A stretch of 64,000 nucleotides of DNA, taken from a virus. Below are positions 22,073-45,664 of the stretch, one piece after another; positions within the stretch are counted from its first letter, which is position 1, and each line of letters begins with the position of its first letter. The position numbers and the translations under genes are program-made. The stretch lies in IMG/VR virus record IMGVR_UViG_3300008113_000012, positions 44,456-108,455 of that record. One strand, 5' to 3'. Below the pieces are notes generated by a model that saw only the letters and a program-made list of their open reading frames with translations, had not been told where the DNA came from and did no database searches.

Positions 22073-25000
22073 ATGGCTGAATTTAAACTAGGTAGAATTA
22101 GATTTGTATGGAAAGGTCAATGGACTGTAGGAACGCCATATCTAATTGATGACGTCGTGAGTAACGGCGGAAAAAGTTATATTTGTGTTGTAAATCATAC
22201 AGCATCTAGTTTATTCGATACAGACTTAGATTTTACACCAACAAAGTGGAATATTGTAGCTGACGGAACACAATGGAATGGTGACTGGGCTTCAGGAACA
22301 TATTATAATCCAGGTGCCGTTGTTAAGTATGGTGCAGTAGTTTATATTTGTGCAACAGGACATACTTCAGCCACCTATATTGCCCCAACATATTTAGGTT
22401 TAGAAGACGACTTAGAAAAGTGGGAAGTATTTGCAACATCATTCGAATGGAAAAGCAACTGGGCAACTTCTACAAGATATAAGCTAAATGATTTTGTAGT
22501 ATATGGCGGGACTACTTATGTTTGCACAGAAGGCCACGTTAGTGCTGCTACTGCAACACTAGGATTAGAGGATGATTCCGACAAGTGGGATATTTTTAAT
22601 CAAGGTGTTACCTATCTTGGTGACTGGAATGATGCAAGTATACGCTATAAGGAAAATGACGTAGTTAAATACGGAGCAAATTTATGGATTTGCGTCGATT
22701 ATCATACAAGTGAAGACCCGTTCGATGAAACAAAGTGGGATATATTTGTAAACGGTTTTGAATTTGAAAGCTCATGGAATAATAGTACAGAGTACCAACA
22801 AGGAGATGTTGTAACATATGGCGGTTATTCATATATTGCTAAAACAATTAACATTAATAAACAACCTACAAGTAATCTAGCAGACTGGAGTGTTTACACT
22901 ACAGGATTTAGTTTTACAGGAGAGTGGGATGTTGCTACAAATTATAAAATTGGATCAGTTATTAGGTATGGTGCATACACTTACGTATCAAAAGTTGATA
23001 ATCTAGGACAGACTCCAACCAACACTACCTATTGGGATTTATTAAACAACGGTTTTAGATGGACATCGACACCTGAGACATATCTAGCAGTAGCATCTGT
23101 TGGTGCAACTGGTTTAGGACAAGGTGCAAAATTTGATGTTACTCGTTCAAATACAGTATACACTGTAACAATTGCAAGTGGATTCCCAGGAACTGATTAT
23201 GCAGTCGGTGATAAAGTTAAAATATTAGGATCACTAGTCGGTGGCACTACACAAGCTAATGATATTACACTTACAGTTACTGGCATTACTGGCGGCGGTT
23301 CTACAGGACCGTTATCAACATTTACATGGACTGGCGCAGCAATTTCTTGGGCAGTTGATGTTAGTTATTTGTTAGGCGACATTGTATCGTTTAGTGCTAA
23401 TTCATACATATGTATTGACCCCCACCTTTCAAGTTTATTAAACAGACCTGACGCGGACACAGTTGGAGACTATTGGAATTTATTAACTGCTGGAGCAGAA
23501 TATAACGTTCTATTAGAAACTGGTGATTTGGTATACTACGGTGCAAACGGTCCGACTAGACTACCAGTCGGTATTAACGGTCAAGTTTTGCGAAGCCAAG
23601 ACGGATTCCCAATTTGGGCAAATTACGGTCTTATCAACAACTTAGTATACGTTGGACCACTAGGACGAGATGTAGCGTATCCAGCCGCTGGTGCAACAAT
23701 CGATCAGCCATGGAAAACTGTAAAATTTGCAACAAAACAAATTGAGGAAGGATACTTATATCCTAATGCAAGAACACTGTTGGCAAAAAATAAACAGTTT
23801 ATTATGAAAGAAATTACCAATTGGGTAATCTATACATATACAGTTGATATTACTGAGTCAACTGCTCTTACTGATGTGTTTACTTGTGCAAGCACTGCTA
23901 ACCTAACAGCAAATATGCCAATTGAGTTCTCTGGAACACTTGGCGGAGTTACAGCAGGACAAAAATATTATGTAAAAACTGTTGTAAGCAGTACAACATT
24001 TACAATTTCAGAAGCATTAGGTGGAACATTAAAACAATTAACTGATGCTACAGGTTCAATGACCGGTACACTATCATACGATAGTGATTTCTGTGAACGT
24101 GATGTTGGATTAATTGTTGAAGCATTAAAACACGATATTGCACATGGAGGAAATAGTAAGATTACTCTTGCCGCCAAGGCATATTACACACCGGCAGGCA
24201 ATGCATATATTAACAGTAATTTTGGAACACAAAAAATTCAAACTATTGCTGCATATAACTACTTAACTACTCTAGTAGTTAACGTTCTTAATAACGAGCC
24301 GTGGAGAAATTATCAAGCATTCAACGGTATTACTAATGGTATAACACAAGTTGTTGACGAATCATTACCTGTTGAAGCAGGAGTAACTACTACAGTTGGT
24401 GCACTGATGTCTATTATCACAACAGGTATCAATGTAGGTAATGCAACAGCAATCCCTGCACCAATTTATCCCAACACAACTATATCTGTCAAGACAGGTA
24501 CTTTTGCAGAAGTGTTGCCAATGGTTATTTCTCCATTTACTGCGGTGGTAGGAGACGAATTAAGAAGTACCGTAATTCAACCAGCACTAGCAAACGACTT
24601 GCTAGTGAACGACAAACCAAAAGCTACATCAGCACTAACTCGTATTAGTAATATTGTTAGCGATGTAATTCAAAATGTTGAGATAACCCCAACATCTGGC
24701 AACACTGAAACACAACTATATGTTGGCGGATACGCAGGCAACAGTACAACTACTACCGCAGTTGGAACCAAGACTGCAATTGTTTCAGCTATCTTATCAG
24801 GTGGACTTGGATCTGTTCCAAGTACAGTCTTAATAGACCCAACAGGGTATGATGCTGGATTTGAAAATGCTCGTAGACTAATTGTTTTAAACAAGGCATT
24901 CTTACAAGCTGAAATCGCTGCATACATGACAGTGAACTATAACACATTATGGAACACTACACTAACTGCTCCACAACGTGCAGCATGGTCTACTGAAGTT

Positions 25001-28000
25001 GGTTATCTTGTTGATGCACTAGCATATGATTTAACTTATGGCGGAAACTTAGAGAGTATAGTTACTGCACGTTTATATTATCCTTCAGGAGTATTTGCTG
25101 CACACTTAGGTGTAAAAGCCGCAGCAATTGCAATCTACTCACGTTTAGTAGCAATTATAAACTTCATTGCTGTAGGTGATAATAGTCCTAGCAGCTGGAC
25201 TAAGTCTGTAGGTAATGCACTTAACCAAGACGACTCTCTGCCACACGGTTCTGTAAATGCAGGAGTATTTGCAGAAGATAGGGTTCAAGAAATTTATACT
25301 TCAATTGATACAGAAGATCTTCCATTAACTGTTGAGCCTAGTATTACTTGGGTAACTGGTGGTCTAGTTGATGCTAAGAATGCAATTCAATCGTTAAAGG
25401 CAGGTATACAAGCGGGCGCCATTGAATATATTAACACAAATTATCCAACTTTAGTTTACGATACTGCCGCACATGCTATTGACGTTGGTTATCTAGTTGA
25501 TGCAGTTGCGTATGATATAATGTTTGGTGCTAACTTCCGCTCTATTAGAGTAGGTATGTTGTATTTCAGAGGAACTGCAAGTACTGAATTAAGTGTATCC
25601 ACAGATTTACCAGAATTACTAGATACTGTCACGTATGTTGACATTGCTATCAAACAAATTACCAACGGACAAGTAGGTTCAGTAGGTAGCGAACTAGCAG
25701 TATCAAGAGCCATAGCTAGTGCAGATGTAATTTATGATATTGTTGCTAGCGGATTAGGTGCAGTACCGTCATTAGTATTACCAGACCCAGTAGGTTATGA
25801 TATTAATTATTCAAGAGCAAGAGCACAGATTGTACAAAATTATGCTTTTATTAAAGCTGAGATTGCAGCATTCTTAAATCTAAACTACAACGCAGTTTGG
25901 GTTAGCCTTGGAGCAACAGGACAAGCAGGATGTGCTAGAGATATTGGTTACATCTTAGACGGTGTACGTTATGATATTACCTATGGTGGCAATACACAAT
26001 CATTAATTGTAGGCAGTGCTTACTATTCGAATTATGATTCAACTATTGATCTTGGTGAGATTGCAGCAACAGTTGCAGCCTACGCTAGAATTAAAACAAT
26101 TATTGGACAAATTGCACAAGCACAGGCAGTGACAATTACTCCCGGTAATGCAGTTTCTCAAGTTGGTGTAGGTGTTAGTGGCGGCAACGCTGCATCTGCG
26201 ACATTTGCACAAGATCGTGTACAAGATGTTATTGACTGGATCAATAATGGCGACGCTAATGCAACCATTGCACCTGATACTACATGGGCAACTTCGGCAA
26301 TAGAAACAGCATTTGCTGCCTTGCAAGATAAGAAAACAGAAATTGTTGCAGATGTAACATGGTGGGTCTACAAGAACTATCAAGATGTAAACTTTAACGA
26401 AGAACTATGTGCTAGAGATACTGGCTATATGGTTGATGCAATAAGCTATGATGTAGCATTTGGCAGTAACTTTGCTGCTATTACAGCAGGTAGAGCACTA
26501 CAACGTGCTACTGTTTCTGCTACGGTTGTTACAACAACTCAACGTCAAGCTGAACTAGGTGCTATTAATTTCTTAAAATACAAAGCTAAGACAGTGGCAG
26601 CTACAGGTGCAGTTGCACAGACTAAAGCTATTATATCTGATGTAATTGCAACTATTAATGGTGGATCAATTCCTCGACTACAGTGGAACAATCCTTCAAC
26701 AATCACTAGTGCGTATGCTGCCGCAACAGTATTGCTAAGAGATAATAAGGCATTTATTCAAGCAGAAATCACCGCATGGATTGATGTACAAATTGGTTTA
26801 GGTACTAGTGGATTTGTTGGTTTAGAATTCAGCAGAGCAGCATGTGAACGAGATGTTGGCTTAATTGTTGAAGCACTGGTATATGACTTAACATACGGCT
26901 ACGGTGTTGGTAACATTGGTAAAATTGCTACACTGATTGCAGGTAAAGCATATTATTCTGCATTAACTGGCGCCCTTGAAATTGACTCAGGTGACACAAC
27001 TGCTACTGTTGCAGCTTACAATAGATTAAAATCTGTTGCACAAAGTGTAGTACAAGATAATGCAGTAACACCAAGTGCAGGCAACACAGTTTCTCAAGTA
27101 AGAGCAGCATCTGGACAAACAGTTGGGTCAGGTGCAACAGCTACCTCAGTCGGAACTTTAGTTGATGTTATTACTAATATAATCACAAACGGATTAACAA
27201 CAGGTGTTCCTACTATAACAATTACCGCAGTAGCCGGAGGCACTACATTTACTAGCGGAACACATAATCTTGCAGTAGGAGATGTTGTTATTCCACAAGC
27301 GACAGGTAACGGTTTAGTTAGTGGAACAAGATATTATGTTGCATCTACTCCTTTAGGCACAACATTTACGTTGGCTGCATATCAAGGTGGCGCAGCAATT
27401 ACTACATTTACTAACGGTACTGGTTTAACTATTCTTGCTGAAATCAACAATTTGCCAAGTACAAGTTGGGTTATTGCAGGTCTAGTAACACAAAGAAATA
27501 ATCTACAAGCAACTAAAGCCACAATTAAAAATCAGATTACAGCGTATATTGAAACTAATTTTCCAACATTGTCATATGACTCAGCAACTTGCGAAAGAGA
27601 CATTGGGCTAATTATTGATTACATTGCCTATGATATGATGTTTGACAGCAACTATCTAACAATAACATCAGCTAGAAGTTATTTTAGAGCACAGGCTGAA
27701 CTAGTGTTAGGCGGGCAAAAAGAAGCAACAGTTGCATCGTTTAGATATCTTAAAACTCTATTGTTAACAGCAGTAGACGGTGATACTACTGCCACTCGTA
27801 GATTAAAAGTATTAATGGATATTATTATTGATACAATGGTTAACGGAACAGGATCAACTGCTGAAGTAGTAGGTACTGTTACTTACAAAAATGATGTAGG
27901 AATGTTTACTGGAGCAGAAGTTTTAAGATTAAATAAAAACTTCCTTGCAGAAGAAGCAACAGCATGGATTAAGCAAAACTTCAGCGGTACTGTAACTAGT

Positions 28001-31000
28001 GTAACTGCGTCATCTGACTTATACACTTCAAGTGCAGCACACAACTTAAAAGTTGGCGACCCCGTTGTATTCTCAGGAACAGCAATTGCCGGTAGCGGAA
28101 TTACTGTTGGAACAACGTACTTTGTATTGACTACTCCAAGTGCTACTACTTTAACAATTACTAATGCGCAAAACGGCACAACTCCCGTTAATGTAACAGC
28201 TGACGGTACCGGCTCAATGATTGTTAGATACTCATTTGATGAAGTATTGTTTGCCAAAGATATAGAAGAATACATTGAAGGTATTGTATATGATTTAGGG
28301 TATACTGGAAATTACAAAACTTTACGTGTTGCTGAATTATATAATAACACAGTATCTGGATCACAAACAGCTAACATGTTCTATGTTAGTAACGGTACTG
28401 GTTTAAGAAACTGCACACTAGCGGGCTTAAGCGGAACATTAACCGAAAGTAACGACTTTGGAACTAAGCGTCCAACTGCTGGTGCTTACGTAGCTTTAAA
28501 TCCAGGCTTTGGTCCTAACGACTCGAACGTATGGGTACAACAACGTTCACATTATTCTCAGAACGTTACTATGTTCGGCGTTGGCTGTTCTGGTGCCAAG
28601 ATTGATGGCGCTATACATGCTGGCGGTAATCGCTCAATGGTTAAGAACGACTTTACAACTATTATCAGCGATGGTTTTGGTGTATGGTGTACAGGCGCTA
28701 ACTCATTAACAGAACTTGTTTCAGTGTTTAACTACTATGGTTATGCGGGTTACATGGCAGAACTAGGCGGACGTATACGTGCTACTAACGGTAACAGCTC
28801 TTACGGTTCATTCGGTGTTATTGCTGAAGGTACTGATACATACGAGCAACCAATTTTTGCAGTAGTTGACAACGCAGGACAGCAGGCAGTTATTACTGAA
28901 ACAGTCGTTAACAGTATTGCAGGAACTGTTTCACGCCTTGAATTCAGCAATGCAGGTACTAACTACACTAACGTAGATATTGGTGTTAGTGGTGACGGTA
29001 TTAATGCAACTGCCATTGGGGATGAATTCCGTGACGGGGCTATCTTTGAAACAAGAATTATCGACTTAGATGACGGACAAGGTTTTGGCGGTACTAACTA
29101 TATCAATGCAATTAACGCTGCTCAAAGTGGCGATACTGCAAGTATTACAATTGCCAACTCTGATGTTGCATTATCAACTGCGTACCCTTCAATGCGTATT
29201 CAAATTACAGGCGGCTCTGGTATTGGACAATATGCAAATATTTTAACATATAATAACGGTACTAAAGTTGCACAGGTTATTAAAGATAGTTTTACAGCAT
29301 TAACTGTGACCACTACTACAATTACCAATAACTTGTTAACTGTAGCAAGCACAGCAACTATAACTCCTGGACAACAGATTTATCTAGGCGGAACTGCTAA
29401 CGGAGTTACGGCAAATGTATTGTACTATGTAAGAACTGCTAACTTCTCAGCTACACAGTTCTCTGTAAGTCTAACAGGCGCAGCCGGTACAGCAGTAACT
29501 ATTTCAGCGAACGGGGCAGTAAGTATTCCGTTGTATGCTGCTGGGTGGGATCATGTAATTCCAGGAACTACTATTGTTGCTGGTTTAGATTTAACATCTT
29601 CATATATTATTGAACCTAGAATTAGTTATACAGCTCCAGGTTATACTGCTACATCACGTACTATCCCAAGTGCTGCTTACAAAGCTGTTGCATATGGTAC
29701 AGGTAGATATGTTGCAGTAGGATCAAGTGGAACAACTACTGCATACAGCTTAAATGGAAAAGCATGGACAGCAGGCGGTGCACTTGGTGCTAGTGCATCA
29801 TGGACTGACATAGTGTTTGGTGGTGGACAAGGTGCAGTAGCCACTGCTCAAGTAGGTGGCTTAGGTGGCGCTGGCGCAGTGTTATCTGTAACAATGGGCG
29901 CCGTTAACAGTGTTGGAGATCCTGGTATAGATCAAGTAGTATCAGTCCAAATTGTCGATGGTGGTTATAACTATACAACACCACCGTCAATTATATTTAC
30001 AGGTACTGGTCTAGGTGCTGCTGCTACGTGTACTGTACTGAATGGAAAAATTGATTCTGTAACTATTGTTACTAACGGCTCAGGATATACTGTTGCACCA
30101 ACAGCAACAGCAGTATCGTCTAGAATTACCAAAATGGATATTAGCACATGGGGTCGTGGCTATACTGCTGCTCCAAGCGTGTCTCTAACTGCACCGTTTA
30201 CAGCAACAGCTTGGACGTCAGGCGGCGCTGCTACAGCAGGCACATACTATTCGTATGTAAACACAGTTGGTTTAGATAATATTACAAATTTCTATCTTGC
30301 TGGTGCAAGCGGAACCTTTAGTGCAGCCGCCCCAACATTCCAAACTGGAACTGGTGCAAGCGGAATATATGGTGTTGCATTAACTTATGTAGGAACACAG
30401 GCTAGAGGTACAGCAGTTTTAAGCAATACTGGTGTAAGCAGTATTACTATTAACGATCCAGGATTTGGTTATACAACAACGCCAACAATTACCATTATTG
30501 ATCCTTTGGCCAAGTTTGTTGCTATTGCAACCGGATCAACAACTAGTTCTTACTTACCAGCTAGCTCAGCAGTTGGCGCAGCCTGGATTGCAGGCGGCGC
30601 ACTACCAACTAGTACTATGGTTAGCCTAGCCTACGGCAATGGCTTCTACGTTACAGTTGGTGGAACATCAAGCGCATCATCGAGTACTACAGGAACAAGT
30701 TGGGTACCAAGAACATTACCTACACTAGGAGCAGGCACTTATTCATCTGTAGCCTACGGTAACGGATATTTTGTTGCAATCAGTACTGGCAGCAATGCAA
30801 CAGCAGTCAGTTCTAGTGGCACAACATGGGCAGCAGGCGGCAATTTACCTTCTAGTACAACATGGACAAGTGTTGCCTACGGTAACGGACGTTTTGTTGC
30901 TATTGCAAACGGACCAAGTAGAACAGTTGCCTACAGCATAAACAACGGTACAACATGGGCAGCAGCAAGTCCAGGACTACCGTCAAGCCAAGCATGGAGC

Positions 31001-32494
31001 AAAATTAGCTATGCTCAAGGATTATTTGTAGCAGTTGCTACAGGTAGTACAGTGTGTGCAACCAGCCAAGATGGTATCAATTGGGTAGAAAGAACAATGC
31101 CTGGCGCATCTTCTAATTGGAGTGGACTAGCATTTGGTAACACTAGCAGCAATCCGTTGTGGGTAGCAGTAACTACAACTTCAGGAACAGTGGCAGCTTC
31201 TCTAAATACTGGAGCAAGAGCACTGGCTCGTATGAGAGTAGTTAACGGTACAATTTTCGAAGTTAGAATGGTTGAACCGGGTAGTGCATATCCAAAAGGA
31301 ACTGTGACTGCTACTACGGCTACTACTAACATTATCAGTGTTGATAACACAGAAAATCTAGTGGCTAATCAACCAGTTATCTTCTCAAGTTGCGACACTG
31401 GCGGGCTAGTAACTGAAAAACTATATTACGTGATTGGTGCTAGTATTGTAACTAATACCAGCTTTCAAGTCAGCCTTGTTGCTGGCAGCGGAACTCCAGT
31501 TGTGCTAGTAACTACTACGGGACTAACTGGCAAGTATAGAGCAGGTGCAATAACTACACAATTTGATCCTAACAAGGTTGTTACAGCAGCATTGAATCCA
31601 AGAGCAGGTGACGGCGCCCTAGCTAATCCAAGTTTTAGCAGTAGAGGTACTGCGTACACTGTTGGTACAACAGTTGCTAACGGTGATGGCTCTGCTAACT
31701 TATATCAACCAAGTACATTTATTGCAGTCAGAAACTTATATGCAGTTCCTCAAGCAGGATCAAACGTGGTGTTTGGATCAATTCCAGGTGTATGGTATAA
31801 GCTAGTAGCTGTTACTAATGTGCTCGGTGATCCAGGTGACTATACCGGTACATTCCAGATTAGTCCTGCAATCAGTGTGCTACAAGCACCTATTGACGGA
31901 GACAGTATAACTACTACAATCAAGTACAGTCAAGTTCGTTTAACTGGACACGATTTCTTGTATATAGGTACTGGTAATCAAGCAGACACTAACTACCCAT
32001 TTGTTAATCCAGCAAACGCTGATATTAACAAGCAAACAGTTGCTAGTGGTGGCGGACGAGTGTTCTTTACATCAACTGACCAAGACGGTAACTTTAACGT
32101 TGGCGGATTGTTTGGAGTACAACAGTCAACTGGTACTGCTACACTAAACGCTGATGCGTTTAACTTGTCAGGATTGCAGAGCTTGCAGTTAGGATCGTTA
32201 AATATTGGTACAGGAAGTGCAATTATTAATCAGTTTAGTACAGACCCGTTCTTTACTGCTGATAGCGATAACATTGTTCCTACACAAAGGGCAATTAAAG
32301 CATATATTACAGCACAAATTGGTGGCGGTCAGAGCTCATTAAACGTAAATACACTAACGGCAGGTGTTGTGTATATTGCGAATAACTCAATCTCAACTAC
32401 ATCAGGCGGACAGTTAAATATAAAGTCAAAGATGAATTTCACAGGTGGTATTGACGGGGCACCCGTTGCACTTGGATTCTTCTTCCAAAGATAA
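22073..32494 (+). CDS. Giant modular tail/adhesin protein (3473 aa)
   Basis: Longest gene of the window and a paralogue of the 13823 gene. N-terminus: six to seven chitin-binding-like modules (WNGDWASGTYYNPGAVVKYG type). A pectin-lyase-like core is split: first half to about residue 840 (VVGDELRSTV), second half from about 2100 (MFYVSNGTGLRNCTLAGLSG, GGRIRATNGNSSYGSFGVIA). Between them lie seven tandem helical modules, besides one copy before the split, each with the core C.RDVGY.VDA..YD...GGN. Two beta units of the VFSG type are inserted among them. Then come GSGYT..PT.T motifs, a propeller-like YGNG.FV.I repeat region (about 2530-3040) and the knob STDQDGNFNVGGLFGVQQST. Ends GFFFQR, like FFFQK near the end of the paralogue. 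Probably a receptor-binding or polysaccharide-contacting tail appendage; enzyme activity not demonstrable. Confidence 0.72.
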   Translation: MAEFKLGRIRFVWKGQWTVGTPYLIDDVVSNGGKSYICVVNHTASSLFDTDLDFTPTKWNIVADGTQWNGDWASGTYYNPGAVVKYGAVVYICATGHTSATYIAPTYLGLEDDLEKWEVFATSFEWKSNWATSTRYKLNDFVVYGGTTYVCTEGHVSAATATLGLEDDSDKWDIFNQGVTYLGDWNDASIRYKENDVVKYGANLWICVDYHTSEDPFDETKWDIFVNGFEFESSWNNSTEYQQGDVVTYGGYSYIAKTININKQPTSNLADWSVYTTGFSFTGEWDVATNYKIGSVIRYGAYTYVSKVDNLGQTPTNTTYWDLLNNGFRWTSTPETYLAVASVGATGLGQGAKFDVTRSNTVYTVTIASGFPGTDYAVGDKVKILGSLVGGTTQANDITLTVTGITGGGSTGPLSTFTWTGAAISWAVDVSYLLGDIVSFSANSYICIDPHLSSLLNRPDADTVGDYWNLLTAGAEYNVLLETGDLVYYGANGPTRLPVGINGQVLRSQDGFPIWANYGLINNLVYVGPLGRDVAYPAAGATIDQPWKTVKFATKQIEEGYLYPNARTLLAKNKQFIMKEITNWVIYTYTVDITESTALTDVFTCASTANLTANMPIEFSGTLGGVTAGQKYYVKTVVSSTTFTISEALGGTLKQLTDATGSMTGTLSYDSDFCERDVGLIVEALKHDIAHGGNSKITLAAKAYYTPAGNAYINSNFGTQKIQTIAAYNYLTTLVVNVLNNEPWRNYQAFNGITNGITQVVDESLPVEAGVTTTVGALMSIITTGINVGNATAIPAPIYPNTTISVKTGTFAEVLPMVISPFTAVVGDELRSTVIQPALANDLLVNDKPKATSALTRISNIVSDVIQNVEITPTSGNTETQLYVGGYAGNSTTTTAVGTKTAIVSAILSGGLGSVPSTVLIDPTGYDAGFENARRLIVLNKAFLQAEIAAYMTVNYNTLWNTTLTAPQRAAWSTEVGYLVDALAYDLTYGGNLESIVTARLYYPSGVFAAHLGVKAAAIAIYSRLVAIINFIAVGDNSPSSWTKSVGNALNQDDSLPHGSVNAGVFAEDRVQEIYTSIDTEDLPLTVEPSITWVTGGLVDAKNAIQSLKAGIQAGAIEYINTNYPTLVYDTAAHAIDVGYLVDAVAYDIMFGANFRSIRVGMLYFRGTASTELSVSTDLPELLDTVTYVDIAIKQITNGQVGSVGSELAVSRAIASADVIYDIVASGLGAVPSLVLPDPVGYDINYSRARAQIVQNYAFIKAEIAAFLNLNYNAVWVSLGATGQAGCARDIGYILDGVRYDITYGGNTQSLIVGSAYYSNYDSTIDLGEIAATVAAYARIKTIIGQIAQAQAVTITPGNAVSQVGVGVSGGNAASATFAQDRVQDVIDWINNGDANATIAPDTTWATSAIETAFAALQDKKTEIVADVTWWVYKNYQDVNFNEELCARDTGYMVDAISYDVAFGSNFAAITAGRALQRATVSATVVTTTQRQAELGAINFLKYKAKTVAATGAVAQTKAIISDVIATINGGSIPRLQWNNPSTITSAYAAATVLLRDNKAFIQAEITAWIDVQIGLGTSGFVGLEFSRAACERDVGLIVEALVYDLTYGYGVGNIGKIATLIAGKAYYSALTGALEIDSGDTTATVAAYNRLKSVAQSVVQDNAVTPSAGNTVSQVRAASGQTVGSGATATSVGTLVDVITNIITNGLTTGVPTITITAVAGGTTFTSGTHNLAVGDVVIPQATGNGLVSGTRYYVASTPLGTTFTLAAYQGGAAITTFTNGTGLTILAEINNLPSTSWVIAGLVTQRNNLQATKATIKNQITAYIETNFPTLSYDSATCERDIGLIIDYIAYDMMFDSNYLTITSARSYFRAQAELVLGGQKEATVASFRYLKTLLLTAVDGDTTATRRLKVLMDIIIDTMVNGTGSTAEVVGTVTYKNDVGMFTGAEVLRLNKNFLAEEATAWIKQNFSGTVTSVTASSDLYTSSAAHNLKVGDPVVFSGTAIAGSGITVGTTYFVLTTPSATTLTITNAQNGTTPVNVTADGTGSMIVRYSFDEVLFAKDIEEYIEGIVYDLGYTGNYKTLRVAELYNNTVSGSQTANMFYVSNGTGLRNCTLAGLSGTLTESNDFGTKRPTAGAYVALNPGFGPNDSNVWVQQRSHYSQNVTMFGVGCSGAKIDGAIHAGGNRSMVKNDFTTIISDGFGVWCTGANSLTELVSVFNYYGYAGYMAELGGRIRATNGNSSYGSFGVIAEGTDTYEQPIFAVVDNAGQQAVITETVVNSIAGTVSRLEFSNAGTNYTNVDIGVSGDGINATAIGDEFRDGAIFETRIIDLDDGQGFGGTNYINAINAAQSGDTASITIANSDVALSTAYPSMRIQITGGSGIGQYANILTYNNGTKVAQVIKDSFTALTVTTTTITNNLLTVASTATITPGQQIYLGGTANGVTANVLYYVRTANFSATQFSVSLTGAAGTAVTISANGAVSIPLYAAGWDHVIPGTTIVAGLDLTSSYIIEPRISYTAPGYTATSRTIPSAAYKAVAYGTGRYVAVGSSGTTTAYSLNGKAWTAGGALGASASWTDIVFGGGQGAVATAQVGGLGGAGAVLSVTMGAVNSVGDPGIDQVVSVQIVDGGYNYTTPPSIIFTGTGLGAAATCTVLNGKIDSVTIVTNGSGYTVAPTATAVSSRITKMDISTWGRGYTAAPSVSLTAPFTATAWTSGGAATAGTYYSYVNTVGLDNITNFYLAGASGTFSAAAPTFQTGTGASGIYGVALTYVGTQARGTAVLSNTGVSSITINDPGFGYTTTPTITIIDPLAKFVAIATGSTTSSYLPASSAVGAAWIAGGALPTSTMVSLAYGNGFYVTVGGTSSASSSTTGTSWVPRTLPTLGAGTYSSVAYGNGYFVAISTGSNATAVSSSGTTWAAGGNLPSSTTWTSVAYGNGRFVAIANGPSRTVAYSINNGTTWAAASPGLPSSQAWSKISYAQGLFVAVATGSTVCATSQDGINWVERTMPGASSNWSGLAFGNTSSNPLWVAVTTTSGTVAASLNTGARALARMRVVNGTIFEVRMVEPGSAYPKGTVTATTATTNIISVDNTENLVANQPVIFSSCDTGGLVTEKLYYVIGASIVTNTSFQVSLVAGSGTPVVLVTTTGLTGKYRAGAITTQFDPNKVVTAALNPRAGDGALANPSFSSRGTAYTVGTTVANGDGSANLYQPSTFIAVRNLYAVPQAGSNVVFGSIPGVWYKLVAVTNVLGDPGDYTGTFQISPAISVLQAPIDGDSITTTIKYSQVRLTGHDFLYIGTGNQADTNYPFVNPANADINKQTVASGGGRVFFTSTDQDGNFNVGGLFGVQQSTGTATLNADAFNLSGLQSLQLGSLNIGTGSAIINQFSTDPFFTADSDNIVPTQRAIKAYITAQIGGGQSSLNVNTLTAGVVYIANNSISTTSGGQLNIKSKMNFTGGIDGAPVALGFFFQR
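23780..28345 (+). repeat. Eight copies of a ~150-residue helical module
   Basis: The conserved core with pattern RD.GY.VDA..YD...G.N is found near 24092, 24994, 25478, 25931, 26410, 26847, 27592 and 28253. Middle spacings are 440-480 bp, giving a unit of about 150 residues that contains NKAFL.AEI.A.....Y upstream and V.AY.RLK.I downstream of the core. The 13823 paralogue has one copy. The larger spacings hold inserted beta units. Divergence between copies is high, so this is an old amplification. Confidence 0.8.
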
Positions 32495-32509: not shown

Positions 32510-32836
32510 ATGGCATCAGGAAGATTAGGAAACGTAGCAATTTTAGCGGTACAAAGTCCGCCACAAACAGTGTATACTACTCCAACAGGATTTTACACAG
32601 TATGTAATGTGACTATTGTCAATAGAAATACCACTGCTGTGAGAATTCGATTGGCAATGGCGTCGGCAGGCACACCAACTGTGCAGGAGTGGATAGAATA
32701 CGATACAATTATCATCCCAAACGGTGTATTTGAGCGTACTGGACTTGTACTACAAGCCGGACTAAATATAGTAGTATATTCGGACACAGCCAACTTAGGT
32801 TGCACAGTGTACGGAATTGAAACTTCAACAACCTAA
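32510..32836 (+). CDS. Small beta-sandwich virion protein (108 aa), family member C
   Basis: Third member of the family at 2787 and 13087. It opens MASGRLGNVAILAVQSPPQT and contains VCNVTIVNRNTTAVRIRLAM, an IIPNGVFERTGLVLQAG turn and a terminal beta strand. Like the others it directly follows a fibre gene (15-nt gap, GGAGAAATAAAA upstream of the ATG). The family probably forms small beta-sandwich subunits at fibre ends or joints. Function not established. Confidence 0.55.
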   Translation: MASGRLGNVAILAVQSPPQTVYTTPTGFYTVCNVTIVNRNTTAVRIRLAMASAGTPTVQEWIEYDTIIIPNGVFERTGLVLQAGLNIVVYSDTANLGCTVYGIETSTT

Positions 32837-32852
32837 TTAGTAGAGATAACAG

Positions 32853-33548
32853 ATGGCACGTTTTAATAGTAAACAATCGATTATATCAGTAACCGGCACA
32901 ACTACGTTAACCTACGTTCTTGACGGGGCAGCAATAGTGATGACAGGAAGTTCTGGTTATGCGTTAACCTTAGCAGGTCCTGCCGCGTTTTCAGGCACAA
33001 CACAAACTATCTGGAACAACACTGCCAGCGGCGATGTTACTATAACTACCGCATCCGGCCAATTTGTCGGATACGGAGCAAGTGCTTCATTATCAATAAC
33101 ACTGCCGTTGAATAATGTTATTAGAATAATTTCAGACGGTACAAATTATTTTATTGCTAAAAGTTCATATGTTGACGACATACAGACATTAAAAACTACC
33201 TTTAACTTGGCTAACGCAACTGCTACTACTATTAACTTTGGTGGCGCAGCAACTTCTGTTCGTATTGGTGCAAGCACTGGTACTTCAGTTGTTAAAAATC
33301 AATTGATTGTTGTAGGAAGACAAACAAACATAACTGCTACAAGAGCATCGGGCGATTACACGTATGACGGTACTGGCAAGATAACTAATTTTGTATTTGG
33401 TAACAAAACAACCAGTGCTATTACCTATGACGGACTGGGTAGAATTAGCGGATTTACAGAAACAATCGTAGACGCAAATGGTAGTGGTACATATACTGTA
33501 ACAAGAACTGTTACATATACTGCTCGTAATGATCCTATCATAGCTTAA
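32853..33548 (+). CDS. Short fibre protein with YD-like repeats (231 aa)
   Basis: The first 110 residues are a beta-rich domain with VTGTTTLTYVLDGAAIVMTG and a DGTNYFIAKSS strand, typical of carbohydrate-proximal fibre domains. A linker (DDIQTLKTTFNLANATATTI) resembles trimeric shaft sequence. The C-terminal 60 residues contain YDGTGKITNF and ITYDGLGRISGFTE, which look like YD/RHS repeats, where Y-D-x-x-G-R/K-hydrophobic repeats build a beta sheet. It lies just before the cysteine-rich gene and probably belongs to the same fibre assembly. RHS homology rests on two repeats only, so it is tentative. Confidence 0.5.
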   Translation: MARFNSKQSIISVTGTTTLTYVLDGAAIVMTGSSGYALTLAGPAAFSGTTQTIWNNTASGDVTITTASGQFVGYGASASLSITLPLNNVIRIISDGTNYFIAKSSYVDDIQTLKTTFNLANATATTINFGGAATSVRIGASTGTSVVKNQLIVVGRQTNITATRASGDYTYDGTGKITNFVFGNKTTSAITYDGLGRISGFTETIVDANGSGTYTVTRTVTYTARNDPIIA

Positions 33549-33567: not shown

Positions 33568-34470
33568 ATGGATGTCTTAACAAATAATCGAATACAAGTT
33601 GCAAACTGTAATATTGCAGGACTAACAACGTGTATAGGAAATACAAATACATGTGTAGGTAACGTACTTACATGTGTACAAGGTACTAACACCAGTCTTA
33701 GTAATACTAACACCTGTGTTGGTAACGTGCTAGGTTGCGTACAAAGTGCTAACAGTAATATTGGCGGATTGCAAACATGTATTCAAAATACCAACACTTG
33801 CAATAGTAATCAGCAAACATGTTTAACTAACATTTGGACCTGCGCCAACTCTCTGTGCGCATGTTTAGCAGGTAAATCAACAGGTACACTAGGCTACGAA
33901 CTAATTTCTGGTTGCTCTGGTAACTATGGTTGTATGTGTGTTGCAAGGCCAGGCAAATTCCAGCACTATGTAATTATGGGATCAGCATGTTGCTGGACAC
34001 ATTATTGCTCGCACATGACTATTGGATTTTACGGAGCCTGCAGTCAAGGCTGTTCAGCTAATAACGCAGGTAGTTGGTGCTGTAATCAGTGCTCATGCGG
34101 TATTATTTACAATTCAAAATGTAACAACGGTTCATATCAATACGGTTGTGCAGGAAACTTAGCATGGATTTTTGGATGTACTGGCGGATGTTATACTGCC
34201 TGTTCAGGCTGTAACTTTACATGGGTTATGGAAGTGATGCCTAATAATATTTGTGCATATGATAGAGCATTTAGATACCACATGAAAAGATCACAAGGCG
34301 GCGGGAACTATATGTGCTGTACTGGTATTGAAAATGCAGGACATTCACAGAACTGTTGCGGTGCTGACCCAACTTGTATGCAATACATATGCTTCTCTAA
34401 CCCAAGTGCTGTATGTTCTTTGGGATGTGCAAATATTGCTATATTTGGTGTACATCGTCTTGCTTGTTAA
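33568..34470 (+). CDS. Extremely cysteine-rich fibre-tip candidate (300 aa, 40 Cys)
   Basis: Forty of 300 residues are cysteine, against almost none in neighbouring fibres. Residues 14-99 form a heptad pattern: cysteines at 22, 29, 36, 50, 57, 71, 78, 85, 92 and 99 are exactly seven apart (Ser43 and Asn64 fill the two gaps), with Ile/Val/Leu at the next position, as expected for a trimeric coiled coil or similar fibre with stacked cysteines. The C-terminal 200 residues look like a compact beta domain (FQHYVIMGSACCWTHYCSH, NFTWVMEVMPNNICAYDRAF) with several CC pairs. The start is supported by AGAGGAAG. A likely fibre chaperone follows, so the gene sits where T4 encodes its distal fibre adhesin. 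No known family was recognised; metal binding is an alternative to disulfides. Confidence 0.65.
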   Translation: MDVLTNNRIQVANCNIAGLTTCIGNTNTCVGNVLTCVQGTNTSLSNTNTCVGNVLGCVQSANSNIGGLQTCIQNTNTCNSNQQTCLTNIWTCANSLCACLAGKSTGTLGYELISGCSGNYGCMCVARPGKFQHYVIMGSACCWTHYCSHMTIGFYGACSQGCSANNAGSWCCNQCSCGIIYNSKCNNGSYQYGCAGNLAWIFGCTGGCYTACSGCNFTWVMEVMPNNICAYDRAFRYHMKRSQGGGNYMCCTGIENAGHSQNCCGADPTCMQYICFSNPSAVCSLGCANIAIFGVHRLAC

Positions 34471-34488: not shown

Positions 34489-34962
34489 ATGGATAAATCA
34501 GAATTTTATAAACTTTGGCACACTAGGCAAGAAGGTGCCGTGCTTAACGAGTACGGGTTCCCTCCAGTGTTATGGCTAGCACAACCAATAACAACTGAAG
34601 AACAATGGACTGATTTTCTCAATCTAGAAATGGAGCCAGTAGAGTTTGCAAAGTTAGATAAAGATGCTGCTGACATGCTTGGAATACCGTTTGTTCTTCC
34701 TCACGTGTTAGTAAGAAAATATCCTGAACCAACAGATCAACTTGACGGGATTTACAAAGCATTATTAGCAATTAAAGAATCTGGAATTGATATAGGCACA
34801 GCTGGAACTGAATATTTAGATAGCATAACTGCTGTTAAAACGTCAGTTCCTAAAACTTATGCACTTCCAGAGGCACCAGATCCTACTATGGGGGTTGAAA
34901 CTGAAGTACTTCCAGAAGAGACTTTACCAGAATTTCCACCGGACTATGAGCCACCAGCATAA
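34489..34962 (+). CDS. Putative tail-fibre assembly chaperone (157 aa)
   Basis: Residues about 78-112 (VRKYPEPTDQLDGIYKALLAIKESG) contain the YP...DQLD...KA motif common in phage tail-fibre assembly and XkdW-like proteins, here quoted only in part. The remainder is acidic and ends in a Pro/Glu-rich tail (EETLPEFPPDYEPPA). Such genes normally follow the adhesin they help fold, which matches the position behind the cysteine-rich gene. It is cytosolic, with no signal or membrane segment. The assignment rests on motif and position, so it is moderately secure. Confidence 0.5.
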   Translation: MDKSEFYKLWHTRQEGAVLNEYGFPPVLWLAQPITTEEQWTDFLNLEMEPVEFAKLDKDAADMLGIPFVLPHVLVRKYPEPTDQLDGIYKALLAIKESGIDIGTAGTEYLDSITAVKTSVPKTYALPEAPDPTMGVETEVLPEETLPEFPPDYEPPA

Positions 34963-35030: not shown

Positions 35031-36119
35031 ATGAATAAACCAACCAAAAAAGCATTTGTTATAAACGGAGGAGTCGGCCGCGTTCTTTGCGCTATTCCTG
35101 CATTAGAACACTATGCAAAGCTAAACAATAATGAATTAATTGTTGTAGCAGAAGCCTGGTCAGAGTTATTTCTATCAAGTAAAATTTTAAGAGACAAAGT
35201 TTATCTATTAACTGATAAAAATCTTTTTAATATTTTAAAAGATTACGAAATTATTTCTCCCGAACCGTATCGACTTAACGCATACTTTACTCAGAAAGTA
35301 AATTTAATACAAGCATTTGACATGCTAATTAATTACGATACTCCTCCTGAAAAAATTCCTGAAACTAAAAAATTCGATTTAGACATTGGAAAGTCAGATC
35401 AAATATTCGGATATACTTCAGTAGAAGAAGTAAAGAAATTATACAAAAAAGACAAAGTTATTGTATTTCAGCCTTTTGGTAGCGGAATAAAACAAAATGG
35501 ATCATTTCTATATGATGAAACTGGCAGGTCATTTGAGCCAAATGACGTTTACCAAATAATTAAAGAATTATCTAAAAATTATGCTATAATAATGTTTAGT
35601 AATTTTAATCCCTTTCCTGAAGGAGAACTTCCAGTAGTTGTACCTACTACTGTAAATCTTTTGCAATGGATGGGAGTTGTTAATGCAGCAGACTATTTTC
35701 TAGGTTGTGACTCAGTGGGACAACATTATGCCAATGCGCTAAACAAACCATCAACTGTTGTTATTGGATCTACTTATCCAGAGAATATTTCATATCCAGA
35801 TAATTCAAGATTTAAAATATTTGATCTAGGTAAAGATAGACGAAAGTATTCTCCTCTTAGAATAACTAATGATTTTGCAGTAGAACGCAATAATGAATCT
35901 TTAATGGTTTTAGATAAAGATCAGTTAAAATCAATTATTAAAAGTATTCAACATGTACTAGGTACAAAAAATAATTTTGTAGCAACACCGGAAACTAACA
36001 TATCTATACCTAATAATGCCTGCTGCCCGCCAAATACTCCAGAGTTCATGAAACCATCATTGCCAGCAACACCGGCACCATTAATAACAAATAATACACT
36101 AACTGAAATAAAAAAATAA
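35031..36119 (+). CDS. GT9-like (heptosyltransferase-type) glycosyltransferase (362 aa)
   Basis: The protein has the two-domain GT-B layout of ADP-heptose:LPS heptosyltransferases (CAZy GT9). Residues 9-25 (VINGGVGRVLCAIPALE) match the N-terminal GxGD-like phosphate-loop region, VFQPFGSGIKQNG near 145-157 begins the C-domain, and NAADYFLGCDSVGQHYANAL at about 218-237 with NKPSTVVIGSTYPENISYP corresponds to the D.G..H.A.A...P.V.L.G motif of the sugar-nucleotide site. It is cytosolic. The last ~45 residues (PNNACCPPNTPEFMKPS) are an unusual Pro/Cys-containing tail. First gene of a cassette with a carbamoyl- and a sulfotransferase, 11 nt apart. The donor sugar and acceptor cannot be read from sequence. 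Confidence 0.72.
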   Translation: MNKPTKKAFVINGGVGRVLCAIPALEHYAKLNNNELIVVAEAWSELFLSSKILRDKVYLLTDKNLFNILKDYEIISPEPYRLNAYFTQKVNLIQAFDMLINYDTPPEKIPETKKFDLDIGKSDQIFGYTSVEEVKKLYKKDKVIVFQPFGSGIKQNGSFLYDETGRSFEPNDVYQIIKELSKNYAIIMFSNFNPFPEGELPVVVPTTVNLLQWMGVVNAADYFLGCDSVGQHYANALNKPSTVVIGSTYPENISYPDNSRFKIFDLGKDRRKYSPLRITNDFAVERNNESLMVLDKDQLKSIIKSIQHVLGTKNNFVATPETNISIPNNACCPPNTPEFMKPSLPATPAPLITNNTLTEIKK

Positions 36120-36129
36120 AGGAAGTACA

Positions 36130-37932
36130 ATGAATCAAACAAAAACAGGTTATATTTTAGGTATTTCTCGAGGACACAATGCTGGTGTTTGTCTTTTGAA
36201 AGACGGCGAAATAGTGTTCAGTATCGAGGAAGAAAGACTTAGTAGATTTAAGTATGACGGAAGTCCTCTAGCTAGTATGAGGAAAGTTTTAGATTATACT
36301 GATAAAATTGACTACTTAGTAGTTGCACATACTCAGCCACTTAAAGGATGTCCGCAAATTGAATATTCAGGCGACGATATGTATACCGGCATGGCAAGAA
36401 AGTTAGGATTAATCGACAGAAAAGAAAATATTTGGAATCATCCTCAAGTAATTGATGTAAGTAATCAACATCATAAAATTCATGCAGCTTGTGCATTTTA
36501 TAATTCAGGATTTAAAAATGCAGTTGCAGTAGTAGTTGACGGCGCTGGCTCTGAATTTACATATAAAGGTAAAGAAAAAGAACACGCTTTATGGGAAGTA
36601 GAATCAATTTTTAACTGTTCTTACGATACTGGAATAACTACAAAATTTAAACATTTCGGTTGTAGAGACCCTATTCCAAATTCATATAGCACTACTATGA
36701 ATTTTGAGTATTTTGATGAGCCTGAGTCTCAATTTGAATGCATTATTACTGACCATGCAGGCATAGTAAAATGTTATGAAGCAGTTACAGAATATTGCGG
36801 ATTCGATGCTATCGAAGCAGGAAAGACTATGGGATTATTCCCTTACGGTAAACCAATCGATAACTTGCCTCCCTTGTTTCAGCAAGATATGAAATTTCCA
36901 ATTTCTAATAGAAACATTGTTATTCCTACATATCCAAATAGTGCAATACTCAACTCTGCAATGTACGGAGCTTTAGAACAATGGTTTTCTGAAGGAGTTG
37001 ATCCTACTACACTAGATAATAGAAGAGATGCTGCATATTGGGTTCAAACTCAAACTCAACAAGCAGTTCTTAATTTTATTATTAAAGCTGCTACACAGAC
37101 TGGAAATAACAACGTTGTTCTTAGTGGAGGTTACGGTTTAAATTGTGTTGCTAACTATTTTTATCTTACTAAATTAAATGAATTAGGTATTAATTTATAT
37201 GTTGAACCCGTATCAAATGATAGCGGAACCGCAGTTGGAGCAGCATTATTCTGGTACTATATTTCATCGGGTGATACTGCTCTTAGAAATAAAGCTAATA
37301 CATTATATCTTGGACCTCATTATAATTACACCGCAGAATATATTACAAATGCAGCAGCAAAAGTTGAAGCTGAGATTACAGATTGCACAGAAGACGATAT
37401 TGTAGATTTATTATCTCGCAAACACATTGTAGCCATGTTTCAAGGTCGCAGTGAAAATGGTCCTCGTGCATTAGGAAATCGTTCAATTTTATTCGATCCA
37501 AGATATAAAGACGGAAAGGCATATGTAAATCGTGTTAAAAATAGAGAATATTTTAGACCTTTTGCAGGTAGCATTTTAGCAGAACATGCACACGAATGGT
37601 TTGATTTGCGAGGTATGGAAGATAGTCCGCATATGATGTATGCTGTAAACTGTCAAGAAGGTGTAGCTGAAAAAATACCATCAGTTATTCATGAAGACGG
37701 AACTTGCAGAATTCAAACAGTAACAAAAGAGAATAACGAAAATTTTTATGCGCTAATTAATGCTTTCTACAAAAAAACTGGCATGCCAATTTTGTTTAAT
37801 ACAAGTTTCAACTTAGGCGGAGAACCTTTAGTAGAAACTCTTGAAGATGCATTATGGACTCTAGAAAATTCGTTAATTGAATACTTATACTTGCCTGAAT
37901 GCAAAAAACTTATTATATTAAAAAATGGCTAA
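36130..37932 (+). CDS. Carbamoyltransferase, NodU/CmcH family (600 aa)
   Basis: Members transfer a carbamoyl group from carbamoyl phosphate, through carbamoyl-AMP, to hydroxyls of sugars, antibiotics or, in some phages, 5-hydroxymethylcytosine. N-terminal Kae1-like domain: LGISRGHNAGVCLLKDGEIV at 10-29 and the metal-site motif HHKIHAACAFY near 114-124, VVVDGAGSE near 135, and SGGYGLNCVANYFY near 335. C-terminal YrdC-like domain: FQGRSENGPRALGNRSIL near 437-454, NREYFRPFAGSIL, and ILFNTSFNLGGEPLVETLED near the end. Length is normal for the family and all expected motifs are present, so it should be active. Start supported by AAAGGAAG. It overlaps the sulfotransferase gene by 8 nt, indicating coupled translation. 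Confidence 0.9.
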   Translation: MNQTKTGYILGISRGHNAGVCLLKDGEIVFSIEEERLSRFKYDGSPLASMRKVLDYTDKIDYLVVAHTQPLKGCPQIEYSGDDMYTGMARKLGLIDRKENIWNHPQVIDVSNQHHKIHAACAFYNSGFKNAVAVVVDGAGSEFTYKGKEKEHALWEVESIFNCSYDTGITTKFKHFGCRDPIPNSYSTTMNFEYFDEPESQFECIITDHAGIVKCYEAVTEYCGFDAIEAGKTMGLFPYGKPIDNLPPLFQQDMKFPISNRNIVIPTYPNSAILNSAMYGALEQWFSEGVDPTTLDNRRDAAYWVQTQTQQAVLNFIIKAATQTGNNNVVLSGGYGLNCVANYFYLTKLNELGINLYVEPVSNDSGTAVGAALFWYYISSGDTALRNKANTLYLGPHYNYTAEYITNAAAKVEAEITDCTEDDIVDLLSRKHIVAMFQGRSENGPRALGNRSILFDPRYKDGKAYVNRVKNREYFRPFAGSILAEHAHEWFDLRGMEDSPHMMYAVNCQEGVAEKIPSVIHEDGTCRIQTVTKENNENFYALINAFYKKTGMPILFNTSFNLGGEPLVETLEDALWTLENSLIEYLYLPECKKLIILKNG

Positions 37933-38674
37933 TATAAAGCAATTTGTTTGTCTTGGCGGTTTGCCTAGGACAGGATCCACTTTACTTTCTGCGATTCTTT
38001 CGCAAAATCCTGAGATACATGCAGAGGGCAATTCTGCTGTTTGTCAAATAATGTCCGATATATTGGTTACTTGCGAAACTCTTGCAAAAGAACAACTCAC
38101 GGCAAATAATAGAGAACATACTAAAATAGATTTAATTAAAGAAATTCCTAACATCTATTATAAAGATGTAACTGCTTCTGTTATTGTTGACAAGTGTAGA
38201 TCTTGGCCAACTAAGGATAATCAACTTTTATATAGACAACTCACTGCAAATCCTAAAACAATAATATTAACAAGACCTCTAGAAGAAATTGTTAAATCAT
38301 TTATAAATCTATTTGAAGAAAACGGATACACTGGCAATCTTGAAAAACGTTTTTCAGAGATATGGTCCGCAGCTATTACACATGCAATCGAAGGTATTAA
38401 ATGGGCTAAACAGAATAATACTGGAGAGTTTTTGTTTGTGTCGTACGATGAACTAACAACTGATACAGAAGCAACTATTAAAAAAATATATTCGTTTTGC
38501 GAATGGAAGAGTTTTAATCATAACTTTAATTCTATAGTAAACATGCATCCGGAAAATGACGATGTATATCAATTAAAAGGCATGCATGACATTAGAAGTA
38601 GTGTATCAAAAAGAAAATTAACTACACAACTATCTCCTGCAATGTTAAAACAATGCAGAGCATTAGACATTTAA
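37925..38674 (+). CDS. PAPS-dependent sulfotransferase (249 aa)
   Basis: The N-terminal GLPRTGSTLLSAILSQNP (residues 12-29) is the 5'-phosphosulfate binding loop of the sulfotransferase fold, and KTIILTRPLEEIVKSFINLF (about 113-132) fits the 3'-phosphate binding strand and helix. FLFVSYDELTTDTEATIKKI is a typical later motif of the family. It should move a sulfate group from PAPS to a hydroxyl or amine; sugars are the commonest acceptors in this branch. The start overlaps the carbamoyltransferase by 8 nt, and its stop overlaps the converging Nudix gene by 4 nt. Context says it acts in the same pathway as the glycosyl- and carbamoyltransferase. Confidence 0.8.
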   Translation: MANIKQFVCLGGLPRTGSTLLSAILSQNPEIHAEGNSAVCQIMSDILVTCETLAKEQLTANNREHTKIDLIKEIPNIYYKDVTASVIVDKCRSWPTKDNQLLYRQLTANPKTIILTRPLEEIVKSFINLFEENGYTGNLEKRFSEIWSAAITHAIEGIKWAKQNNTGEFLFVSYDELTTDTEATIKKIYSFCEWKSFNHNFNSIVNMHPENDDVYQLKGMHDIRSSVSKRKLTTQLSPAMLKQCRALDI

Positions 38675-44712: not shown

Positions 44713-45408
44713 ATGATTATAGGTGTATGCGGGTTTATTGGTTCTGGCAAAGATACTGTTGCTGACTATCTTACAAATTTTCACGGATTTAGACGAGAAT
44801 CATTTGCCAATAGTTTGAAAGATGCAGTAGCACATGTATTTGGTTGGGACAGAACAATGCTCGAAGGGCGTACAAAACAGGCCCGTGAATGGCGTGAACA
44901 AGTAGATCCTTGGTGGGCAGACCGACTCGGCATTCCAACTCTTACTCCTCGTTGGGTCTTACAATATTGGGGAACAGAAGTGTGCCGTCGAGCATTTCAC
45001 GATGACATTTGGATTGCCAGCCTTGAAAATAAACTCCGAAACAGCCGAGACGACATTGTTATTAGTGACTGTCGCTTCCCTAACGAAATTAAATCAATTA
45101 AAGATGCAGGTGGCATTGTAGTACGTGTAGTTCGAGGACCTGAGCCAGACTGGTATCAAGATGCTATAGATATGAATGCAGGTGACCGTTGTATAACTTA
45201 TATGACTGCTAAAGTACGTATGCAAAAATTGGGAATACATGCTAGTGAAACTGCATGGGTTGGAACTAAGTTTGACTTAGTTCTAGATAACAATGCCACT
45301 ATTGATGACTTGTTTGCACAAGTTAAAAGTCTGGTTTTAGAGACCCCTGCTTCCATTGAAAACCCTCCTTATGGAGAGTCCTTTGGCAGTTTGCACACAC
45401 TGTCTTAA
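44713..45408 (+). CDS. 1: Deoxynucleoside monophosphate kinase gp1 (231 aa)
   Basis: The enzyme phosphorylates dNMPs (in T4 also the hydroxymethyl-dCMP) for phage DNA synthesis. Walker A is GFIGSGKDT at residues 7-15; RESFANSLKDAVAHVFGW and PRWVLQYWGTEVCRR (around 78-92) are typical for the family, as is IVISDCRFPNEIKSIKDAGG (about 114-133). T4 gp1 has 241 residues. The last ~25 residues (ETPASIENPPYGESFGSLHTLS) run into the opposing HNH gene over 86 nt and look unlike a kinase C-terminus; they may be read-through into sequence brought in with the endonuclease. Confidence 0.88.
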   Translation: MIIGVCGFIGSGKDTVADYLTNFHGFRRESFANSLKDAVAHVFGWDRTMLEGRTKQAREWREQVDPWWADRLGIPTLTPRWVLQYWGTEVCRRAFHDDIWIASLENKLRNSRDDIVISDCRFPNEIKSIKDAGGIVVRVVRGPEPDWYQDAIDMNAGDRCITYMTAKVRMQKLGIHASETAWVGTKFDLVLDNNATIDDLFAQVKSLVLETPASIENPPYGESFGSLHTLS

Positions 45409-45664
45409 GATTTGCAGGACGGGAGTTATTTAGATTCCCGTCTACGTGGAACACATTAAACTGTTCCTTATACTTGCTTTTATAGCCACACTTATCGCAT
45501 TCTGACTTCATGCGATATCCATCTTGATACCACTTGGGCATACCTTTGCCTATTCCCCCATATCGAGCGCACACTTCGCATTTAGAGCGATAGAATACTC
45601 TACCTTCTTTACGATAGTTAATAGCAGCTGGTCTTAGCCCGCATCCGCATAGTGGTCTTATCAT
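45323..45664 (-). CDS. HNH endonuclease, homing type (113 aa)
   Basis: Four CxxC-like pairs (Cys6/8, 29/32, 56/59, 90/93) and the HNH core FNVFHVDGNLNN...NLKTVCANCQR (His73, Asn77-80, Asn85) identify the zinc-stabilised HNH family widespread as free-standing endonucleases in T4-like phages. It cuts DNA with limited sequence specificity and may spread into related genomes by recombination. It converges on and overlaps gp1 by 86 nt. A minus-strand late promoter GCTAAATA begins 12 bases before the ATG, so its mRNA would have almost no leader. Confidence 0.85.
   Translation of the reverse strand: MIRPLCGCGLRPAAINYRKEGRVFYRSKCEVCARYGGIGKGMPKWYQDGYRMKSECDKCGYKSKYKEQFNVFHVDGNLNNSRPANLKTVCANCQRTLHKEGFQWKQGSLKPDF

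Follow-up and report, generated by a model that had tools for sequence, protein, structure and literature searches.

Predicted cysteine-rich tail-fibre heads encoded upstream of a heptosyltransferase-like gene in aquatic phages

Two of the closest described systems are possible parallels to the present locus in the way they work. The autotransporter heptosyltransferases (TibC/AAH) are GT9-related enzymes encoded beside a repetitive adhesin and modify Ser/Thr, whereas the candidate substrate here is a Cys-rich phage fibre. In the glycocins, a sugar is placed on cysteine by the product of an adjacent gene, a SunS-type S-glycosyltransferase; glycocins are small secreted peptides with GT2 enzymes, unlike a phage head with a GT9-like gene, and the parallel is one of function. 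Known S-glycosyltransferases such as SunS are GT2 enzymes, and to our knowledge no GT9 enzyme modifies cysteine. Cysteine is normally rare in phage fibres. No description of Cys-rich cyanophage fibres, or of Cys-rich heads paired with a GT9-like gene, was found in the literature searched.

The DNA analysed (the window) is a stretch of 64,000 nucleotides, positions 44,456 to 108,455 of the IMG/VR virus record IMGVR_UViG_3300008113_000012. The genes of interest are on the plus strand and are preceded by the gene for a giant fibre protein (22073..32494, 3473 aa), which is syntenic with the annotated tail-fibre proteins of P-SSM2, S-SSM7, and Syn1. It is followed by the genes for a 108-aa fibre-associated protein of the MASGxLG family (32510..32836; 41-48% identical to the cyanophage orthologues of this slot; phrog_11338, tail fibre) and a 231-aa protein (32853..33548), which in its C-terminal part resembles the short protein encoded at the corresponding position of P-SSM2 and which has a weak match to a virion structural phrog. 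The Cys-rich head gene (33568..34470) comes next and is followed by a small gene for a chaperone-like protein (34489..34962; phrog_2504), which is alignable to T4-like GC 516 of Syn1 and P-HM1. Downstream are a GT9-like (heptosyltransferase-like) protein (35031..36119; phrog_8954, PHROG E = 1.8e-126), a NodU/Nol-like carbamoyltransferase (36130..37932; Pfam Carbam_trans_C/N, phrog_1601; closest to S-SSM7 at 58%), and a sulfotransferase-like protein (37925..38674; Pfam Sulfotransfer_3, 2.2e-16). No glutaredoxin, thioredoxin, or DsbA gene was found in the contig, and none of the psbA, CpeT, and hli families was found in its 108 kb, so that these markers lend no support to a cyanobacterial host. 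A 113-aa ORF on the minus strand (45323-45664) has 8 Cys in a zinc-finger-like arrangement and is possibly an HNH-type endonuclease.

The head gene starts with ATG and encodes 300 aa (P0001) with 40 Cys (13.3%), the highest Cys content among the window ORFs of at least 100 aa (next 7.1%, then 2.4%). The N-terminal anchor and heptad stalk (residues 1-105; 33568..33882) have 12 Cys, and the C-terminal head (residues 106-300; 33883..34467) has 28. Ten of the 12 (residues 22, 29, 36, 50, 57, 71, 78, 85, 92, and 99) share one register (all i mod 7 = 1), leaving residues 14 and 97 as the only non-register Cys of this part; when 12 Cys were placed at random in 105 positions, ten in one register were obtained in 0 of 200,000 trials. 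The residues after the ten heptad Cys are I, V, V, V, V, I, N, L, A, and L, so that 8 of 10 are V/I/L. The original prediction, which had described 40 Cys, ten of them on an exact heptad and nearly all of these before an aliphatic residue, with 28 further Cys in the C-terminal domain, was thus borne out by the ORF translation. Part of the regularity in the stalk is due to internal duplication, since its DNA contains a 52-nt repeat pair (77% identity, spacing 63 nt) as well as 21-nt units.

The anchor is similar to the M(A/S)D(V/I)LxYNALxEN of other Cys-rich heads. The a/d hydrophobic heptad expected of a trimeric coiled-coil stalk is present in the N-terminal part of P0001; in the register table, position a is 85-91% V/I/L and position d 45-46% (mixed L/V/T), and the Cys are at g. 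The full-length AF2 model (pLDDT 35) was of too low a confidence to interpret, the stalk appearing as short helices of low pLDDT. In ideal Crick geometry, assuming a canonical parallel trimeric coiled coil, the g-g' CA distance is 10.7-11.5 Angstrom, and a direct interchain disulfide ladder is therefore unlikely. The predicted heptad ladder is accordingly supported as a genuine N-terminal heptad array but not as a stack of Cys placed for interchain disulfides. The same distance is an argument against a hardening mechanism in which head and stalk fold in the reduced state in the cytosol and form disulfides once the cell has lysed, within chains in the head and possibly between chains elsewhere, to give a rigid, protease-resistant tip, the GT9-like enzyme doing something else. 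No convincing relative was found using the stalk alone as query. The Cys heptad stalk is limited to the window type and one homologue (L003), in which the heptads are kept with Cys in 7 of 11; the marine homologues have short or different stalks.

A relative of P0001 with 61% identity is present in L003, and more distant relatives were found in L004 (marine single-cell virus AG-345-P14), L006, L040/L041, L042, and L048/L049; the Cys are conserved in the relatives in L003, L004, L006, L040, L042, and L048. Across six aligned heads 17 Cys are invariant, and in each pair compared the Cys positions coincided more often than those of other residues. TGT and TGC are mixed in 14 of the 17 invariant columns, and these switches argue for selection on the amino acid. 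A sequencing or frame artefact as the source of the Cys was rejected because independent contigs preserve the Cys while switching synonymously between TGT and TGC. Conservation, sharing, and codon switching all favour disulfide hardening, as does the fact that the proteins act outside the cell. The head Cys occur in the clusters CCxxCxC, CxxxCxxxC, and CCGxxPxC, which could instead coordinate metal ions and organise the tip. Invariant clustered Cys would fit such a role, and the T4 gp37 tip is a precedent for iron binding; against it, no recognised metal-site family was found in Pfam, no His pattern was noticed, and the same Cys density is seen in an unrelated head with variable Cys positions (see below). 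Metal binding was considered very improbable.

The AF2 model of the isolated head, made from six sequences, was all beta (pTM 0.70, mean pLDDT 64). Using Foldseek against BFVD, 46 matches were obtained at E <= 0.001 (prob 1.00, TMq about 0.36-0.57), including a 294-aa protein of Prochlorococcus phage Syn1, S-CAM7, and side-tail-fibre proteins. Matches to the PDB were weak, the best being the G7C gp63.1 tail fibre (prob 0.72). By sequence, no relatives of the head were found in the genome contigs, and for P0001 no relatives were found in the PDB and no PHROG below E 0.09. On the basis of the modelled fold, P0001 is a tail-fibre head, and the original prediction of a fibre-tip protein agrees with these fold matches and with the position of the gene beside a giant fibre gene and a chaperone-like gene.

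The same slot was compared in other phages. The slot upstream of the phrog_8954 gene is filled by heads with 6-13% Cys that belong to no fewer than two unrelated sequence families. The remark in the original prediction that no such family was recognised did not hold: T4-like cyanophages and IMG/VR viruses commonly have a Cys-rich head here. In P-SSM2, S-CAM1, S-CAM3, S-SSM7, Sf-FS3, AG-345-F15, and AG-345-O18 the slot has 2-3 Cys-rich proteins (about 8-12% Cys), mostly of a Gly-rich type. These Gly-rich proteins (phrog_4205/phrog_35878; PSSM2_304/306 in P-SSM2, and those of S-CAM1, S-CAM3, S-SSM7, and Sf-FS3) resemble P0001 in slot, in a Cys content of 8-12%, in the downstream GT9-like gene, and in some cases in the anchor, but their head is IWGxGGG, Gly_rich_2-like, and their Cys positions are far less conserved. 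No homology was detectable between window-type and Gly-rich heads (hhalign probability 0.2%), and both types occur in tandem in L040 and L042. In AG-345-O18, a 758-aa protein with 73 Cys (L056 5017-7293) resembles the 105-aa MASGxLG fibre-associated protein at both ends and has the look of a MASGxLG protein interrupted by a Cys-rich domain; no relative of it was found in phage records.

Cys-poor proteins are in the slot in P-HM1, MED4-213, S-RIM32, Syn1, and S-CAM8. In Syn1, Syn1_102 (GC 515; 294 aa by coordinates) is located between the tail fibre and GC 516, which aligns with the window gene 34489-34962; from its length and position, Syn1_102 is probably the 294-aa Syn1 protein matched in BFVD. 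The T4-like GC 515 heads (phrog_2415; Syn1_102, PHM1_099, CPMG_00023, and S-RIM32 R1080702_109) share with P0001 the slot, immediately downstream of the giant fibre gene and upstream of that for the small GC 516 protein, and a similar fold is suggested, but they have only 2-3 Cys, no GT9-like gene downstream, and no sequence similarity to P0001 (hhalign 0.4%).

In the Gly-rich family, 263 alignment columns have any Cys and only 3 reach 90%, and the Cys counts showed no even-number bias (28 even, 36 odd). Many non-conserved Cys in a sister family and the absent even bias both count against disulfide hardening, which also leaves the link to the GT9-like gene unexplained, and we regard it as rather unlikely. 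Given that link, the changing Cys positions of the Gly-rich heads, and counts that do not favour even numbers, modification of the Cys is at least as plausible. S-modification fits the g-position array as well as the Cys turnover and the absent even bias, and the lack of a glutaredoxin, thioredoxin, or DsbA gene in the contig is counted on the same side. The 17 invariant Cys of the P0001 family speak against modification, since disulfides or metal sites would account for them no less well.

The identity of the partner gene was examined by profile and PDB searches. The Pfam Glyco_transf_9 profile scored 17.7 bits against the window gene product, which is sub-threshold (cut-off 22), and 22.0 bits against the S-CAM1 orthologue at the same cut-off. 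PDB heptosyltransferases were matched at E 0.004-0.008 over the C-terminal half, which carries a nucleotide-sugar motif (GCDSxGQHxAxA...P...GST). This motif is shared with the GT9 heptosyltransferases WaaC and WaaF, from which phrog_8954 differs in scores at or below family cut-offs and in having Gly-Arg for Gly-Asp: in a weak HMMER alignment, a GxGR that is invariant in the GT9-like proteins (Arg17) stands where WaaC has Gly-Asp. The Asp aligned to Arg17 is the proposed catalytic base of WaaC, and its replacement means that catalysis may differ or be absent in the GT9-like protein. Both the replacement and the low Pfam scores count against modification of the Cys by this protein. No match to the NCBIfam TibC/AAH-type family was found. 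Among 50,697 phage records, full-length phrog_8954 relatives were found in P-SSM2/5, S-SSM7/6a, Sf-FS3, S-CAM1/3, and AG-345 records, and every locus inspected among these had Cys-rich heads.

For the genomic link, IMG/VR loci were fetched by the GT9-like gene alone (80 of 558 relatives), and the 65 with at least 3 kb upstream were analysed. One to three ORFs of 6-13% Cys were present within 4.5 kb upstream on the same strand in 64 of the 65, and at the remaining locus (L101) the Cys-rich head is fused to the C-terminus of the giant fibre, whose last 270 aa contain 22 Cys. Only 0.4% of the 477 other ORFs reach 5% Cys or more. In 18 control loci (16 distinct records) with the same slot and no GT9-like gene, no ORF of at least 120 aa was above 3.7% Cys. 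The 65 GT9-like proteins form 39, 30, 20, and 2 clusters at 95, 80, 70, and 60% identity, and the nominal Fisher value for the link is too optimistic because the loci are not independent events. Like the fibre-head identity and the Cys conservation, the link was established computationally.

More distant phrog_8954 members (E 1e-22 to 1e-26) were found in Vibrio phages D505 and SBP1 and Aeromonas phage HJ05. The tail proteins beside these genes have 13-17 Cys in one 150-aa stretch, compared with 0-9 in the other genes inspected. In the Vibrio phage tail proteins (L058 9735-15005 and L060 9739-12516) the Cys are scattered along a stalk that is rich in Ala and probably helical. In the HJ05 fibre (L059 7306-8985), directly upstream of the phrog_8954 gene, 17 Cys lie in one C-terminal 150-aa stretch and fill the head. 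No carbamoyltransferase was annotated near the distant Vibrio and Aeromonas genes, so that the head and the GT9-like gene form the minimal pair. As the link spans different heads, Cys density itself may be what the partner needs.

Another account of the link is that Cys-rich heads and the GT9-like gene move jointly in a single fibre/sugar module; the enzyme would then have host glycans or Ser/Thr of the fibre as its target and would not act directly on Cys. The gene order was identical throughout the inspected cassettes, the stalk is rich in Thr/Ser/Asn, ADP-heptose-type genes are annotated nearby in cyanophages, and modules mix: the window terminase (53633-55228) is closest to those of PA5oct-type jumbo phages (55%), while the carbamoyltransferase is nearest S-SSM7. 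The fibre cassette thus appears to move between phage lineages. Inheritance as a cassette could yield part of the linkage and is to that extent an argument against modification. On the other side, the link holds across unrelated heads and reaches distant phages of Vibrio and Aeromonas, in which the tail proteins are dotted with Cys, and a host LPS target is weakened by the absence of heptose from cyanobacterial LPS reported in PMC4515613. We consider common travel without action on Cys unlikely.

The reading we favour, held tentatively and at somewhat less than an even chance, is that the Cys of P0001 are kept together with the adjacent GT9-like enzyme and are modified by it on a receptor-binding fibre head. 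P0001 would be the receptor-binding head of a T4-like phage tail fibre, with a short anchor, the heptad stalk, and the all-beta head. Its thiols would stay reduced in the host cytosol, and the GT9-like enzyme would put an S-linked sugar, possibly heptose, on Cys either ahead of fibre assembly or in its course. The sugar would then be elaborated by the carbamoyltransferase and sulfotransferase encoded nearby, and the mature tip would be densely covered in modified thiols serving in host binding, stability, or masking. Cys as the acceptor, a sugar nucleotide as the donor, and the biological role are what we infer. No sequon was evident around the Cys. The nearby carbamoyltransferase and sulfotransferase genes, together with genes of ADP-heptose type that are annotated next to the cassette in P-SSM2 and S-CAM1, suggest sugar chemistry; ADP-heptose-type genes were not seen in the window, and the 108-kb contig yielded no phosphoheptose isomerase. 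In L041, sugar-phosphatase-like (1119-1745) and cytidylyltransferase-like (269-673) genes are located near the carbamoyltransferase gene, consistent with a sugar-nucleotide pathway.

A wider form of this reading, possible though doubtful, is a dedicated phage thiol-modification system in which the GT9-derived enzyme phrog_8954 glycosylates many Cys of the adjacent head or stalk, Cys density being selected as acceptor density, independent of fold and movable from head to head. If the modification is real, the pairing of Cys-rich heads with the GT9-like gene may represent a system of a new kind, the head itself being a variant of known fibre heads. The phages concerned are abundant aquatic ones and include the cultured P-SSM2, S-CAM1, and S-SSM7. 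An essentially one-to-one link between head and enzyme would point to undescribed covalent chemistry at the phage-host interface. If true, it would provide a function for phrog_8954, phrog_4205, and phrog_35878, all listed as of unknown function, and a reason for the presence of carbamoyltransferase and ADP-heptose-type genes in cyanophages despite the reported heptose-free LPS of cyanobacteria.
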